Below the pieces are notes generated by a model that was not told the origin of the DNA, did not search any database, and worked only from the letters and a program-made list of their open reading frames with translations. A program made the translations under genes and the position numbers. From contig NZ_SLWX01000015.1 of NCBI RefSeq assembly GCF_004340525.1, forward strand, positions 17,234 to 81,233: a DNA stretch of 64,000 bases, read 5' to 3'. This stretch comes from Chromatocurvus halotolerans (GTDB lineage Bacteria > Pseudomonadota > Gammaproteobacteria > Pseudomonadales > Halieaceae). Shown piece after piece: positions 2,678 to 57,107 of the stretch (positions within the stretch are counted from its first letter, which is position 1; each line of letters starts with the position of its first letter).

Positions 2678-3778
2678 TTATCTTTGACGCGAGCGCGAAA
2701 CCTGAAACGTGACGGCCCGCGAATCCCAATCGGCAATATCCCAGGGATTGAAAAGTTCGAGCTTGCCCCCCGCCGCCGCTGGCGGTGAGACCGATTTATC
2801 GAGCTCTATGTTACTTACCAGGGCGAGAGCGGTTTTGCCGGCTTGCTCGGTGTGCAACGCGACTTCGTTGGCGGTCATCAATACTGCGTCCAGGAGTGCG
2901 CTGGTCGTTCCCTTGACCTCGACTTTGATCGCGACGCCGTCGCGTTCCGCCAGGAAGTCATAGGGCTTGCTAGCCGATGTGTCCTCCACGGCATACCCTT
3001 CAAGCTCAAGCTGGCGCTTGGCAACCGCCATTGCGCACAGCTCGACTGCACGCCTCTCGTCGCCGGTAAGCGCGAATCCCTGGCGGTTGGCTGCCGTCTG
3101 GCGGGTTGGGTTCGTAATCGCCTCTATAGCGCTTAAATCGATTTCTCGGGCGTTCAAGTTGCGCCCGCGATCAACGGACGCGTATATGATCGCGAGCAGC
3201 CCCAGCGCCTCCGCTATGGCGTCGAGAAACGCCTGCTCGTCTAGGTTCTCGGGGTCAAACGCCCGAGCCAGCGCCGTAGCGCGTTCAAAAGACTTCGGCA
3301 GTGCGGCGGTCGCACCTAGCTCTATTTGGTCCGGGAAGCCGGAAACATCGGCGCCGGCTTCCTCCAATTCTTGAAGCATCCATAAGATGCGGGCATCGAG
3401 TTCTTCGCCGGATGTTGTCCGAAGGTCTCCGCGCTCCGCATCCCAGGTCGAAGAGCTGCACCCCAGGGTGACGTATACGCGCCGACCATCCCGAGAAAAA
3501 TGAATAACGACGTAGTAGCCATCGGTCGCGTTCGGCGAGCGCTCTCGGCAATGGAAGCGCACCCAGGGAGCTTCTGTTTTGCGCCCTATGCCGTCTTTAC
3601 CGTGCACAGCTAGGGTGGCAGCGAACTGCCCCATTCGCGCTGTGAGGGCCGGCCAGGCGCTCCTGAAAAGGTTAGGCAAAGTTTGGCGAATTAATTCCCC
3701 TCGTTGCTTCATCGCGGGGGTGTTTTCGCTGGTGTACTCGCGTTGCAAGTTTGCTATCCGAGCAATTTCACTTTTCAT
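2678..3778 (-). CDS. McrB-N (DUF3578)/NO VEIN (DUF3883) two-domain nuclease, restriction-like
   Basis: This 366-aa protein probably acts as a modification-dependent or stand-alone restriction enzyme. Residues about 20-190 resemble the MrcB N-terminal DNA-recognition domain, with 'WVRFHCRERSPNATDGYYVV' and 'RRVYVTLGCSS'. Residues about 240-360 match the NO VEIN C-terminal (DUF3883) fold of the PD-(D/E)XK class: 'SASKPYDFLAERDG' then 'IKVEVKGT' supplies the D...ExK active-site pattern. There is no AAA+ GTPase domain, unlike classical McrB, so the recognition and cleavage domains are fused directly. It is divergent from the DUF4145 gene and part of a small defence cluster with the downstream reverse transcriptase. 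The defence role is inferred from the domain pair and context. Confidence 0.7.
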   Translation of the reverse strand: MKSEIARIANLQREYTSENTPAMKQRGELIRQTLPNLFRSAWPALTARMGQFAATLAVHGKDGIGRKTEAPWVRFHCRERSPNATDGYYVVIHFSRDGRRVYVTLGCSSSTWDAERGDLRTTSGEELDARILWMLQELEEAGADVSGFPDQIELGATAALPKSFERATALARAFDPENLDEQAFLDAIAEALGLLAIIYASVDRGRNLNAREIDLSAIEAITNPTRQTAANRQGFALTGDERRAVELCAMAVAKRQLELEGYAVEDTSASKPYDFLAERDGVAIKVEVKGTTSALLDAVLMTANEVALHTEQAGKTALALVSNIELDKSVSPPAAAGGKLELFNPWDIADWDSRAVTFQVSRSRQR

Positions 3779-3927
3779 TGTTTCATCCGTGCTGGTCTTG
3801 ATTCGGGATAGTTCGCGGCATTTACTTCCGGGCCTGATTCCTTAGCGACTAACTACATTACATCAAGCCGTATAGTTGCTAGCATCTCCGTGCAAAGCCT
3901 TCCCGCCCCTCACAAAAGAGATTGGGT

Positions 3928-4506
3928 ATGTCGAAATATCAGGGTGTTCCATGGGCCAACGCGTCCAATCTCGGTTCAAAAGGTTATCGTTGCGGCTACT
4001 GCGGAATCAATGTTGCCTCAAGCCTGGGGTTCGTCGCTGCCGACTCGATCGAGGGGCGCTATGCCGAAATTCGCCTTTGCTCTCATTGCGCCAAGCCGAC
4101 ATTTTTCCACGGGCAGAGCAGATGCCCTGACGTAGCTCCCGGGAATGAGGTCGACCACGTTCCAGATGGGGTGTACGCGTTATACCAGGAGGCGAGGAAT
4201 GCCGCAGCCGCTAACGCCTACACGGCCTCCGTGCTCGCGAGCCGGAAGTTGCTGATGAACATTGCGGTCTCGCAAGGAGCCCCCGAAAAACTTCGGTTCA
4301 TCGAATATGTAGATTTTCTTGCGGATGGGGGCTTTATTCCTCCAAACGGAAGGGGCTGGGTTGACCACATTAGAACCAAGGGAAATGAAGCCACCCACGA
4401 AATTGTCTTAATGGAACGTGAGGGTGCTGCAGAACTCATTTCCTTTTCGGAAATGCTACTTAAGTTTATTTTTGAATTCCCGGCAAGAGTGCCGATTGAA
4501 CAATAA
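3928..4506 (+). CDS. DUF4145 domain-containing protein
   Basis: This 192-aa protein has an N-terminal zinc-ribbon-like segment ('CGYCG' and 'CSHCAKP', about residues 20-55) followed by a helical DUF4145 domain. The latter includes the 'YTASVLASRKLLMNIA' helix and the closing 'IRTKGNEATHEI' motif, which resembles the R...N..H active-site region of HEPN-clan proteins. DUF4145 proteins are frequent in defence islands and restriction loci, but their biochemical role is not settled. ATG 3928 is preferred over the TTG at 3922 because the purine-rich AAAAGAGA lies at a workable distance. It sits between the nuclease gene (divergent) and the DRT2 ncRNA/RT, so a shared antiviral function is plausible but unproven. 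Confidence 0.65.
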   Translation: MSKYQGVPWANASNLGSKGYRCGYCGINVASSLGFVAADSIEGRYAEIRLCSHCAKPTFFHGQSRCPDVAPGNEVDHVPDGVYALYQEARNAAAANAYTASVLASRKLLMNIAVSQGAPEKLRFIEYVDFLADGGFIPPNGRGWVDHIRTKGNEATHEIVLMEREGAAELISFSEMLLKFIFEFPARVPIEQ

Positions 4507-4739
4507 AACGCCAACGCGGCCGGTTGTAGGAGAATAACCTACAGTTTGCTGAGTAGCTCTGTTGAGGCGCGGTCAGGCGCTCGGACTCGGAATTGAATGG
4601 GCGTTCTCGCACTAGATTGCTGACCCAAAGATAGACTACTCAGAAAGGGATGCTGATGAAATCGAGGTTTTCAAAACCTCGTAAGATAAACGCAGCGAGA
4701 TCCTGATCAATTACGCGAAAACCACGAGAATCTCCAGCA
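4507..4739 (+). other. non-coding stretch upstream of the DRT2 ncRNA
   Basis: No credible gene is seen here. It holds a near-perfect palindrome at 4664-4682 (9-bp arms CGAGGTTTT/AAAACCTCG around one base). The ncRNA promoter should lie in or just after this stretch. The best -10 I can offer is GAGAAT at 4726-4731, with a poor -35, so the transcription start is not resolved. Confidence 0.5.
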
Positions 4740-4792
4740 CTCGAAAAGTATGCTACCATACTTAGGCCTGGCGGCTCGGGCGCTAGGGAATG

Positions 4793-4873
4793 TCACAGAA
4801 TGTCAAGCCATTCCAGGCAGCCTTCACGGCAGCCTGTCATGATTGACGCGAGCATTGCGACGGTAATCCGCAT
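4793..4873 (-). CDS. neo: neo repeat ORF (26 codons linear, endless when concatenated)
   Basis: On the minus strand AGGAGG (4879-4884) stands 5 nt before ATG (4871-4873). In the chromosome the frame runs 26 codons and stops at TGA (4793-4795). If the interval 4795-4914 is joined head to tail, that stop becomes TTA (Leu) and the frame continues through GCA ATG ATA TAT AAT back to the same ATG. One turn is exactly 40 codons with no stop, so the concatemer encodes an endless repeat protein; each unit starts MRITVAMLAS and ends YNVYITKEVS. In known DRT2 systems phage infection triggers the cDNA concatemer, and expression of the repeat protein arrests growth. The linear ORF alone is not expected to be the functional product. 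Confidence 0.8.
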   Translation of the reverse strand: MRITVAMLASIMTGCREGCLEWLDIL

Positions 4874-4914
4874 GGATACCTCCTTTGTGATATAGACATT
4901 ATATATCATTGCTA
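4795..4914 (-). repeat. 120-nt cDNA repeat unit bounded by ACAGAA motifs
   Basis: ACAGAA occurs at 4795-4800 and again at 4915-4920, exactly 120 nt apart. Flanking bases differ on both sides (4794 c versus 4914 a; 4801 t versus 4921 g), so a jump anywhere within the six identical bases gives the same 120-nt unit. 120 is divisible by three, so the neo frame is kept from unit to unit. Confidence 0.85.
4801..4903 (-). promoter_or_regulatory. split neo promoter (-35 and -10 joined only in concatemer)
   Basis: A perfect -35, TTGACA, is at 4801-4806 and a perfect -10, TATAAT, at 4898-4903, both on the minus strand. In the chromosome the -10 precedes the -35, so no promoter exists. Across the concatemer junction the spacer is 4800-4795 (6 nt) plus 4914-4904 (11 nt), 17 bp in total, the optimum for sigma-70. 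The -10 then lies just upstream of the AGGAGG and the neo ATG. Confidence 0.85.
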
Positions 4915-5041
4915 ACAGAAGCGGCGCGGCCCCGAGTTATGCTCTGGGTGGGATGGTGAGAGAAAGTCCACTTGGTTAAGCCGGAGAGGGGTTTGGATCG
5001 CCGCAGTCCTTTACCCTCTCCGGTTTTGCTAAGAGGAAAAG

Positions 5042-6319
5042 ATGGCAACAGACGACTTCAGCTGGTATCGCCATCGTAACTATCTGCACTTCGATAACCC
5101 GTTAGGTAAAAAATCGGCAGAAGCGCTTGTTAAAAATCCGCTAAGAGTTAAATCTCATTCTTTCTACCCCCTGATTTCCTACGAAATTGAGTCAATCAAG
5201 ATCGCCAAGGATGCGGCATCAGGTAGTATTGAAAAGAAAAAGAAGCCGCGGCCTATCCGTTATGCTGCCCACGCAGACAGTCATATATATAGCTTCTACT
5301 CAACAATCCTTTCGCAAAAATACGAAGATCTACTTAGAGACAAAGCGCTATCAGAGCATGTTCTGGCGTTCAGGCCGCTGGGAAAAAATAATATAGATTT
5401 TGCGGCCGAAGCATTCGAAGACATACGAGTCATGGGGACTTGTGCTGCAGTAGCTCTCGATATCACCGGATTTTTCGACAATATAGATCACGCTATTCTT
5501 AAAGATGCGTGGTGCGATTTGTTGGGCGAAGCTCGGCTGCCGGGCGACCACTTCGCAATCTTCAAGTCCCTTACCGCTTACTCTTATGTCCCCAAGCTTG
5601 CGCTTTATCGCCAGTTGGGAATATCGCAACATAACCCAAAAAATAACCGGAAAAGAGTTTGCGAGCCGCGGATATTTCGCGAAATAGTGCGAGGTGGGAA
5701 CCTCATTACAACTAATGAGAATGCTTATGGAATTCCGCAGGGCTCACCGATCAGTGCGCTGCTTTCGAATATTTATATGGTTGAATTTGATGAAGAGGCG
5801 TCCAAACTCGCGCGCTCTATAAACGGAAAGTATTATCGGTATTGCGATGACATTTTGTTCATTGTTCCAATTGACCAAAAGGACCGCATAGCAAACAAAG
5901 CGAAGACCATGATCAGAGGTCTCAAGTTAGAAATAAATAAAAAGAAAATAGCGGTTAGAAGCTTTACTCAGCGCGGGAATATCCAAAGAGCCGATTACCC
6001 CCTTCAATACCTTGGGTTCACATTTGATGGCGAGCGGATACTTATACGCTCGGCGGCGCTAGCTCGATATTCTGACAAAATGAAACGGGGGGTTAAATTC
6101 GCCAAAGCCACGATGCGGAAAAGGAACGGCCTAAGGGTTTTACGGGGGGAGCCGGTAAAGCCTCTTTATCGCAAAAGTTTGTATCGACTTTACTCCCACG
6201 TCGGAAGGCGAAATTTTCTTAGCTACGGGTATAGAGCCGCAAGAAGGATGAACTCCCCTGCGATAAAGCGTCAACTTAAACCCTTATGGCGTAGGCTGGA
6301 AGAGGAAATTGAAAGGTAA
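5042..6319 (+). CDS. drt2: DRT2-type antiviral reverse transcriptase
   Basis: This 425-aa RT is the size expected for DRT2 (unknown-group UG2). Visible RT motifs: 'RPIRYAAHADSHIYSFYS' (motif 1), 'CAAVALDITGFFDNIDH' (motif A, catalytic Asp), 'NAYGIPQGSPISALLSNIYM' (motif B), and 'YYRYCDDILFIV' (motif C, YCDD catalytic pair rather than the YADD of retrons and group II introns). Next come 'LEINKKK' and 'LQYLGFTFDG'. No maturase, endonuclease or effector domain is present. The start has AAGAGGA 5-11 nt upstream, directly after the terminal hairpin of the ncRNA, so RT and ncRNA are probably co-transcribed. The assignment rests on these motifs and on the neo signature upstream. Known DRT2 enzymes make concatemeric cDNA by rolling around their ncRNA template. 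Confidence 0.85.
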   Translation: MATDDFSWYRHRNYLHFDNPLGKKSAEALVKNPLRVKSHSFYPLISYEIESIKIAKDAASGSIEKKKKPRPIRYAAHADSHIYSFYSTILSQKYEDLLRDKALSEHVLAFRPLGKNNIDFAAEAFEDIRVMGTCAAVALDITGFFDNIDHAILKDAWCDLLGEARLPGDHFAIFKSLTAYSYVPKLALYRQLGISQHNPKNNRKRVCEPRIFREIVRGGNLITTNENAYGIPQGSPISALLSNIYMVEFDEEASKLARSINGKYYRYCDDILFIVPIDQKDRIANKAKTMIRGLKLEINKKKIAVRSFTQRGNIQRADYPLQYLGFTFDGERILIRSAALARYSDKMKRGVKFAKATMRKRNGLRVLRGEPVKPLYRKSLYRLYSHVGRRNFLSYGYRAARRMNSPAIKRQLKPLWRRLEEEIER

Positions 6320-6444
6320 GCAATGTCCGGGCGCCCTTGGCCCGAGAAGCTGCAGTGACCCCGGCAATTCATCTAAAAAGTAGCACATTGGTAGCACGAG
6401 GGCTCTACGTAAGAAGGCAATTGATCGTAACTTATTGAAAGTAT

Positions 6445-6521
6445 TGGTGGGCCCAGTAGGACTTGAACCTACGACCAATCGATTATGAGTCGACTGCTCT
6501 GACCAACTGAGCTATGGGCCC
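6445..6521 (-). tRNA. tRNA-Ile2 (CAU anticodon)
   Basis: A full 77-nt cloverleaf on the minus strand. The acceptor stem is GGGCCCA with TGGGCCC, the D arm contains AGCTCAGTTGGT, the anticodon loop CTCATAA carries CAT, the T arm is GTAGG-TTCAAGT-CCTAC, and the 3' CCA is encoded (6445-6447). The body closely follows the minor isoleucine tRNA whose C34 is converted to lysidine, not initiator or elongator Met. Its 3' end faces the left element (last gene ends at 6319), so it is the likely attachment target of that element. Confidence 0.92.
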
Positions 6522-56357: not shown

Positions 56358-57107
56358 ACCTGCCGTGGCTCATGTCTGCAAAACCCAGGTATACGGCGGC
56401 CTTTGCGGACAGAGCACGAGCGTGACCGGCCTATGCCTGTACCGGAGCGATCCAGGATGCTGAAGGCTGAGCATGCGAAGGCGATGGGACGTGGGCAGCG
56501 TGCGGCCAGGCGGCGGCCGCAGAAGAAGCCGAACCTGTTGCTGGTGAAACCGCCGGCGCAGAAGGAGGCCGGGCTGATTACGCTGGTGGCGCGGGTGGTC
56601 GTGGCCTGGGTGCGGCAATGGTGAGCGGGTTGCGATCAATCTGTCGCTCGGTGATCCTGATTTCGTAGTGCCAAAAGTAACTCTTGAGCGCTTATTTGTC
56701 CGGCGGGCTTGCGCGACTATCAGTCATGCTCAAAGCAGCGTGGTCCAGGGGCAAGAGAGAGCATGTTCCGCTCGCAGAGGAGATCCAGTGCAGAGGCGCC
56801 GATCGCCGAAGAGAAGCCATGCATGTCAGCCGTAAGAAAGCCAGTCGCCGCACGACGGGAGATTTGGCCGGCGAAGAAGGCGGGTGATTCGCGCTCTAAG
56901 GGCAAGCCAAACCAGCGCGGGACAAGATCGAGGAGCAGCGCAGTCTGGTGGGTCGGCTCGTGGACTGGTTTAAAGCATGGTGGCTGTGCCGAGCGTGCAA
57001 ACTGCGCGATAATCGCTCTGCAGCGCCTAGGCTGATCCCCGAACACCCGCGTCCCTGGCGGGCTGGTGCTGCTCTTTTTACCAGGGGTGCCGTAGGGAGG
57101 TAAGGAG
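56358..57107 (+). other. region without a convincing gene
   Basis: These 750 bp contain only short, basic, low-complexity frames. The best is 56460-56624 (54 aa, MLKAEHAKAMGRGQ... with a hydrophobic C terminus), preceded by no clear ribosome-binding site. It may be degraded element sequence. The left boundary of the mobile element probably falls here, but no direct repeat matching the right end was found by eye. Confidence 0.4.

Follow-up and report, generated by a model that had tools for sequence, protein, structure and literature searches.

A DRT2 reverse transcriptase and its ncRNA

The window, by which we mean the whole stretch of 64,000 nucleotides analysed, contains at positions 5042-6319 of the plus strand an intact gene for a reverse transcriptase (RT) of 425 amino acids, whose catalytic motif, YCDD, corresponds to residues 267-270 and is found in all 20 aligned RT sequences, that of the window included, as expected for the active site of this family. 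The product scores 589.7 bits against the Drt2 model of NCBIfam, NF041746 (cut-off 390), and 649.3 bits (E 7.6e-196) against the Drt2 model of PADLOC, compared with 49.4 bits against PADLOC Drt9, and in a phmmer comparison its residues 2-423 match the chain of the solved DRT2 structure 9c0i (E 7e-150). Based on two curated libraries and on the similarity to 9c0i, the enzyme is assigned to DRT2.

Directly upstream of the RT gene, as is characteristic of DRT2, lies a structured RNA with a 5' handle and a pseudoknot. The predicted DRT2 ncRNA, composed of 5' handle, template and 3' scaffold, occupies positions 4767-5032 of the plus strand; its ends are approximate, being derived from the Klebsiella numbering, in which the first ACA of the template (ACA-1) begins at base 29. 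The 3' scaffold (4913-5032, plus strand) is matched by the Rfam family RT-12 RNA (RF03016) with 69.6 bits (gathering threshold 44.2, E 1.2e-9) over the whole model (positions 1-117 of 117), the template and the 5' handle lying outside the match. Of 13 relatives scanned, 11 likewise have RT-12 before their RT gene, the remaining two, L003 and L113, being under the threshold (38.5 bits in L113). The fold covaries among DRT2 relatives, as judged from an alignment of 16 rows. It comprises a 5' handle hairpin (4767-4787), in which CCTGGCG (4767-4773) pairs with CGCTAGG (4781-4787), a pseudoknot helix (4921-5004) formed by GCGGC (4921-4925) and GCCGC (5000-5004), and a 3' hairpin stem (4980-5024) in which GCCGGAGAGG (4980-4989) pairs with CCTCTCCGGT (5015-5024), all on the plus strand. 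In the 15 of 16 rows having the handle 100% of the cells of its seven pairs are paired, with changes on both sides in six of them; the pseudoknot is paired in all 16 rows, two of its five pairs changing on both sides (GCGGC/GCCGC covarying with GTGGC/GCCAC) and three being invariable; and in the ten pairs of the 3' hairpin 83.7% of cells are paired, seven pairs showing changes on both sides. Over the three helices together (7, 5 and 10 pairs) 92.8% of cells are paired, both-side changes occur in 63 cells as against 19.7 in shuffles, and the covariation score of the 22 pairs is 0.498, compared with 0.205 in shuffled alignments and at most 0.225 when the partners are slid; sliding them by 1-3 columns reduces the pairing to 38-53%. 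The original prediction, which had proposed a DRT2-like neo gene and a search of the ncRNA and RT families as a check, is supported by this RT family, this RT-12 RNA and this covarying fold, as well as by a 120-nt unit that matches the published template. A promoter for the ncRNA itself was sought by a simple consensus scan of 4500-5060, and none was found.

The RT gene is followed by a tRNA-Met (CAT) gene (6445-6521, minus strand), whose 3' end borders the element carrying DRT2. This 3' end (6445-6491) is one copy of a 47-bp direct repeat with a second copy at position 15113 of contig 15 (L134) and a 45-bp copy at 647, and these repeats bound two tandem integrative elements, one of about 8.6 kb and the other of about 14.5 kb. 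Both elements have a tyrosine integrase, and that of the approximately 8.6-kb element (L134:15310-16644) is located just inside the far repeat. Since the tRNA-Met 3'-end repeats bound the element, DRT2 is considered to be cargo at the tRNA end of the approximately 8.6-kb element. Partial tRNA-Met repeats recur in other genomes of the family, e.g. G625 and G565, and in an empty-site search beside relatives of the 6751 gene a tRNA was found in none of 11 stretches. The DRT2 element also encodes an MrcB_N and NOV_C protein (2678-3778, minus strand), perhaps related to restriction, and a DUF4145 protein (3922-4506, plus strand) weakly resembling PADLOC PD-T7-4 (E 3e-5); both are perhaps further defence genes. 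A large open reading frame of the same element (781-2622) has a weak match to a replication protein (REP_ORF2-G2P, E 5.7e-7), and elsewhere in the window an Rfam int-alpA RNA (57020-57086, 46.3 bits) is a sign of another integrative element.

The 120-nt unit and its junction

Within the ncRNA, the predicted neo proto-gene corresponds to a template of 120 nt (4795-4914, read on the minus strand), which upon head-to-tail joining gives 40 stop-free codons. As in the DRT2 of Klebsiella, it is bounded by two ACA words on the plus strand: ACA-1 (4795-4797), the 5' end of the template, which is identical in all 16 assigned units, the window included, and with whose copy, TGT, every cDNA unit is predicted to finish, a role described in PMC11100668, and ACA-2 (4915-4917), the predicted re-annealing site just beyond the template, which reads ACA in 12 of the 16 units. 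A third ACA is found inside the unit at 4896. The original prediction had placed the repeat ACAGAA at 4795-4800 and 4915-4920, 120 nt apart, and these coordinates are exact. Its description of the minus-strand frame also holds: from an ATG whose A is at 4873, 26 codons are read before a TGA (4795-4793) that closes the linear frame in the chromosome, and upon joining this stop is lost, the junction codon becomes TTA and the frame closes on itself after exactly 40 codons (AMIYNVYITKEVSMRITVAMLASIMTGCREGCLEWLDILL), the unit being divisible by three and stop-free across its junction as is typical of DRT2. The remaining frames of the joined unit are closed, the other two minus-strand frames by three stops each and the plus-strand frames, as had been claimed, by 3, 2 and 1. 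Across the 4795/4914 junction, joined units would read ...TTCTGT|TAGCAA..., and the tryptic peptides predicted for Neo are the junction-spanning EGCLEWLDILLAMIYNVYITK plus ITVAMLASIMTGCR.

In two respects the original prediction leaned too heavily on what it had noticed, the stop-free frame and the 6-nt repeat. The frame is real, but its openness by itself is a weak sign, as this frame stays free of stops in 11.3% of 2000 dinucleotide shuffles of the unit, or in 32.6% when any of the three frames is accepted, and in 31% of 5000 shuffles in which the promoter blocks were kept fixed; the stop-free frame alone was therefore rejected as evidence. ACAGAA as a functional 6-mer was likewise rejected, since only ACA is common to the relatives, in which the prefixes shared by the two ends are 3 to 4 nt long; the window is unusual in that its match continues through GAA, further than in any other locus whose unit has ACA at both of these ends.

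The strongest local sign, absent from the original prediction, is a promoter assembled at the junction. A -35 box TTGACA (4801-4806) and a -10 box TATAAT (4898-4903), both on the minus strand and both matching the consensus in 6 of 6 bases, stand in the wrong order in the genome and are brought 17 bp apart across the junction only once units are joined, an arrangement that is itself a mark of DRT2. The joined unit then reads TTGACA (4806-4801), 17 bp, TATAAT (4903-4898), with 12 of 12 promoter bases, followed by the Shine-Dalgarno sequence AAAGGAGGT (4878-4886, minus strand), 4 nt upstream of the predicted neo start codon ATG (4871-4873, minus strand), which occupies unit position 42. In the linear DNA, a consensus scan of 4500-5060 found no sigma-70-like site on either strand, and when one mismatch and a spacer of 16-18 bp are allowed, the minus strand still has no promoter within the 450 nt preceding the RT gene.

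This organization closely follows that of the DRT2 system of Klebsiella pneumoniae (KpnDRT2; UG2), in which the template spans ncRNA bases 29-148 (120 nt), the jump leads from 29 to 148, the junction reads TGT followed by TA, the promoter spacing is 17 bp, and of the 40 codons in a unit the genome as it stands shows 26 (PMC12039810, PMC11100668). The window shares the RT family over its full length, the pseudoknotted ncRNA upstream, the 120-nt template with its ACA bounds, the TGT and TA junction, the boxes rejoined at 17 bp with Shine-Dalgarno sequence and start codon downstream, and the 40 codons per unit of which 26 are visible in the linear genome. It differs in the Neo sequence and in the predicted primer: the putative primer-binding site (4908-4912, plus strand) was placed as the equivalent of Klebsiella bases 142-146, reported as such in PMC12039810, and the primer predicted for the window is GCAAT, where Klebsiella has GATAT. 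By its sequence, the window locus adds one more member to DRT2, an already known defence system. To our knowledge, DRT2 is the only immune system with a gene stored in such a way that it escapes ordinary gene finding. DRT9 and DRT10 resemble it in that an RT and an ncRNA make repetitive DNA, but the DNA that they make is poly-dA or consists of short tandem repeats, with no coding unit (PMC12483538, PMC12632851).

Close relatives and competing interpretations

The 450 nt upstream of the RT were compared in 22 loci, the window included, whose RTs were found by tblastn with more than 260 bits and with matches reaching near the RT start; L128, which lacked upstream DNA, was excluded, and the upstream sequence of L127 is shorter than 450 nt. 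The RTs of the two E. coli loci and of L122-L127, which lie on viral contigs, are 49-52% identical to that of the window. At a threshold of E 0.001, 3141 related proteins were counted. Further searches added little. E. coli genomes searched with the window DNA gave no match, none of the 301 genomes in the order of G249 matched at E 1e-60, and plasmids and phages searched with the DNA of L123 yielded two records with short partial matches and no additional locus. Viral scans with scaffold words of 17 and 15 nt returned four stretches corresponding to three known contigs and a contig-end locus (L151), and 19 others, none of which encodes DRT2 by tblastn; viral scans with the RTs of L007 and L014 gave a single match of 31 residues and no DRT2, and the viral scan with the window RT gave four matches at 26-27% identity, which were not taken as DRT2.

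A unit could be assigned in 16 of the 22 loci, in 12 by an ACA/ACA pair and by eye in four with a deviating second word (L002, L113, L118, L127); because several loci (e.g. L003) hold further open ACA pairs, the one adjoining the conserved scaffold was taken as the unit. According to the original prediction, relatives with an interval not divisible by three or with stops in the equivalent frame would speak against a neo gene. In fact, all 16 assigned units, of 99, 111, 117, 120 or 132 nt, are divisible by three and keep the same single minus-strand frame open, some of them with an open plus-strand frame too. The lengths named in PMC12039810 are 111, 117, 120 and 129 nt, and the 99 nt of L004 and 132 nt of L127 fall outside these. 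The two boxes are 17 bp apart upon joining in 16 of 16 units, with all 12 promoter bases conserved in 12 of these; L126 and L132 match 5 of 6 bases at -35, and the -10 box is TATAGT in L127 and TACAGT in L004. The start codon, ATG in 14 units and GTG in two, is found at unit position 42 in 15 of 16, and GGAG precedes it in all 16. These 16 units do not amount to 16 independent tests, since seven are 117-nt loci resembling close kin. Nonetheless, a 12/12 promoter present at the junction and nowhere in the linear DNA, together with 16 of 16 units divisible by three with the same frame open, is by our sequence counts far beyond chance.

The second word is less constant, reading ACA in 12 units, ATA in two (L002, L118), GCA in one (L127) and ACT in one (L113). 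ATA and GCA could pair with TGT if G-U/G-T pairs are allowed, and ACT leaves one mismatch, which is no more than suggestive; wobble pairing of the variant words was not accepted as proven, 12, 2 and 1 pairable words against one ACT being too few. In six loci (L119, L120, L121, L129, L005, L006) no ACA-bounded unit could be assigned. In L119 (1180-1324) an exact split promoter is found, with the word ACTG at both ends, and the interval of 145 nt is not a multiple of three; this may be a genuine exception, reflect a different spacer or result from an error in the sequence. The closest relative found, the DRT2 of Parahaliea mediterranea (L002), is 70% identical to the window in its RT and has a 120-nt unit with the same open frame and a Neo with 27 of 40 residues identical; it differs in its second word, the ATA mentioned above, which could pair with TGT through one G-U pair, although in Klebsiella defence was abolished when the ACA homology was lost. 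Between the Neo frames of the window and L002 dN is 0.241 and dS 0.254, with 9, 9 and 7 differences at codon positions 1-3, and thus this comparison gives no sign of purifying selection on Neo amino acids. This fits the remark in PMC12039810 that conserved Neo residues mostly reflect conservation at the nucleotide level.

Taken together, we hypothesize that the window very probably holds a DRT2 antiphage system composed of an ncRNA and a hidden neo gene, whose template, joined head to tail, would create a sigma-70-type promoter and a 40-codon frame for a Neo protein predicted to arrest growth upon phage infection. The RT and ncRNA families, the covarying fold, the unit bounded by ACA words, the promoter at the junction with the ribosome-binding site, start codon and frame that follow it, and the conservation of all these can be read from the DNA; production of cDNA, mRNA and Neo at this locus is inferred from what is known in Klebsiella. 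There, as presumably here, the RT would be primed from the ncRNA 3' end and would copy the template from 4914 to 4795, the cDNA end TGT, copied from ACA-1, would re-anneal at ACA-2, and repeated rounds of copying would yield head-to-tail units; upon phage infection a second strand would be synthesized, transcription would run across the unit junction, and translation would give a repetitive Neo protein stopping growth.

It may be argued that DRT2 makes concatemeric cDNA in which the open frame is incidental and that the DNA or RNA product acts, not a Neo protein. This is improbable: a stop-free frame is indeed common by chance in one 120-nt unit (11-33%), and amino-acid constraint is not seen between the window and L002, but all 16 units, from 99 to 132 nt, keep a triplet length, a single minus-strand frame, a start codon and GGAG, and in Klebsiella stop codons abolished defence at 7 of 7 codons while synonymous changes did not (PMC12039810). 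That the RNA is copied between boundaries other than 4795 and 4914, through another ACA or another jump, seems very improbable, in spite of the third ACA at 4896 and the imperfect conservation of ACA-2 in the relatives, as the ACA at 4896 would give 101 nt, no multiple of three, and a promoter-only rule that ignores ACA yields the same 120-nt unit as the sole exact pair.

The intact RT of 425 residues with its YCDD motif, and the likewise intact RNA fold and junction promoter, speak against a decayed and inactive DRT2 remnant, which might be suspected from the position of the system as mobile-element cargo beside a second tandem element; we consider this also improbable. Finally, the Shine-Dalgarno sequence and ATG are already well placed in the linear form, as an ordinary small minus-strand gene of 26 codons (4873 to 4793) would require, but no promoter was found on either strand of 4500-5060 and the boxes are misordered until joined, which makes such a gene hardly credible. 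The hidden neo gene assembled from joined units is accordingly the interpretation that we retain for the window.

A split-promoter rule across the DRT2 family

In order to look for neo units independently of the ACA words, a rule was defined according to which the plus strand before the RT gene must have TGTCAA followed by ATTATA, the 17-bp spacer setting the unit length; this length must be a multiple of three, and the frame of the circularized unit must be open. As written, before the held-out loci were fetched, it admits 57-190 nt, one mismatch per box and the pair with fewest mismatches; a tightened form, set afterwards, admits 90-170 nt, one mismatch in all and any such pair, with 100 shuffles per locus. 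Among the close loci, 15 of 17 fit the rule, 13 with exact motifs, where 0.16 (tightened) or 2.4 (as written) are expected from shuffles.

The distant set comprises 26 relatives with RTs about 31-47% identical, whose genomes had been examined before the criterion of an end word was framed, and loci within one branch are non-independent. Under the tightened rule, nine of the 26 fit with exact motifs (expected 0.02) and ten when one mismatch is allowed (expected 0.33); requiring in addition an in-register end word of at least 4 nt leaves six (expected 0.00), with GTTT in L007, L009 and L010, of which the latter two are near-identical, TGTTT in L013, CGTT in L131 and TATTGA in L020. L006, L012 and L014 pass the rule with no in-register word of at least 3 nt, and the tightened rule is failed by 16 of the 26. 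These include two loci with exact pairs, L119 and L008, in which the resulting lengths of 145 and 152 nt are not divisible by three. Under the as-written rule, 13 of 26 fit by any tied pair (expected 3.63), ten by all tied pairs (0.9) and seven with the word (0.3).

The held-out set consisted of 17 further plasmid and phage loci, 16 of which were counted, L188 being dropped with 37 nt upstream. With the rule as written, seven of 16 fit by any tied best pair (expected 2.12) and four by all tied pairs (0.58), only modestly above chance; adding a word of at least 4 nt leaves five (L189, L194, L201, L202, L203; expected 0.15). The tightened rule is passed by seven of 16 (expected 0.14), five of them with the word (0.01), and failed by nine, L187, L190, L191, L192, L195 and L197-L200, L198 having only 188 nt upstream. 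L196 passes the tightened and not the as-written rule and looks like chance, and L199 passes only the as-written rule, without the word. In L189 and L201 only some of the tied pairs fit; the 135 nt of L201 was picked by the word, and a tied, non-fitting pair of 76 nt has a word of 5 nt. L204, a relative of the L202 phage RT found later, fits both forms with 150 nt and the word AGTATTA.

As controls, 66 loci of other RTs were used (80 matched, 14 skipped), whose upstreams begin at the most upstream possible start codon and are thus not placed exactly as those of DRT2. The rule as written is passed by 11 of 66 (expected 9.45), by two for all tied pairs (3.13) and by three with the word (0.7), and the tightened rule by one of 66, with neither an exact pair nor a word. 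Two of the three controls with a word, L036 and L051 of one Flavobacteriaceae assembly, pass the loose rule with 69 nt and an in-register word of 7 nt; their upstreams probably correspond to a single repeated sequence, which may be a simple repeat. In view of the held-out and control counts, split promoter and end word jointly carry the claim that the arrangement extends to the whole family, and the frame criterion alone does not.

On balance, we lean towards the view that neo assembly is a general trick of the whole DRT2 family, and not only of the clade near Klebsiella. Evolution would fix the geometry, that is boxes giving exactly 17 bp on joining, a unit of triplet length and an open frame, and the template-jump word would drift, taking forms such as ACA, GTTT, CGTT, GTAT up to AGTATTA, and TATTGA; one branch of Lachnospiraceae/Ruminococcus type would use another frame phase. 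The RTs of ten fitting loci, other than L009, L010, L014, L193, L194 and L204, were scanned and all have PADLOC Drt2 as best model (E at most 3.5e-108). The phase of the frame to the promoter is that of the window, TAT opening a codon and GAC of the -35 box reading D, in L006, L007, L009, L010, L013 and L131 as well as in L189, L193, L194, L201, L202 and L204, and it is another in the predicted units of L012 (4647-4769), L014 (4660-4785), L020 (4671-4808) and L203 (445-609).

Fitting loci occur among divergent DRT2 systems from Bacilli, Clostridia, alphaproteobacteria and phages, and if this view is correct, every such system would contain a hidden neo gene that escapes the ACA rule. The discoverers of Neo state in their preprint that its annotation is harder in divergent clades, and no neo annotation in such clades was found in the open-access literature searched, PMC12596737, PMC12632851 and PMC12483538 included, the final version of the preprint, supplements and subscription papers aside. 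The presence of Neo in divergent clades is hereby turned into about a dozen concrete predictions of unit length, junction word and frame, for example 138-nt units with a jump at the shared TGTTT in L013 (Exiguobacterium) and 147-nt units with a jump at the shared GTTT in L007 (Salinicoccus). It is this family-wide rule that deserves the attention of specialists, the system of the window being an ordinary member, one more, of DRT2.

The Bacillus-type RTs of L009 and L010 have, according to a translation check, one stop codon each in the aligned stretch (RT reference 5001-6329). Minus-strand hypothetical proteins are annotated just upstream of the RT in L189 (483-617), L191 (486-614) and L195 (468-620), and that of L189 overlaps the predicted neo unit at 527-655, so that some annotated genes may in fact be pieces of neo in its linear form.
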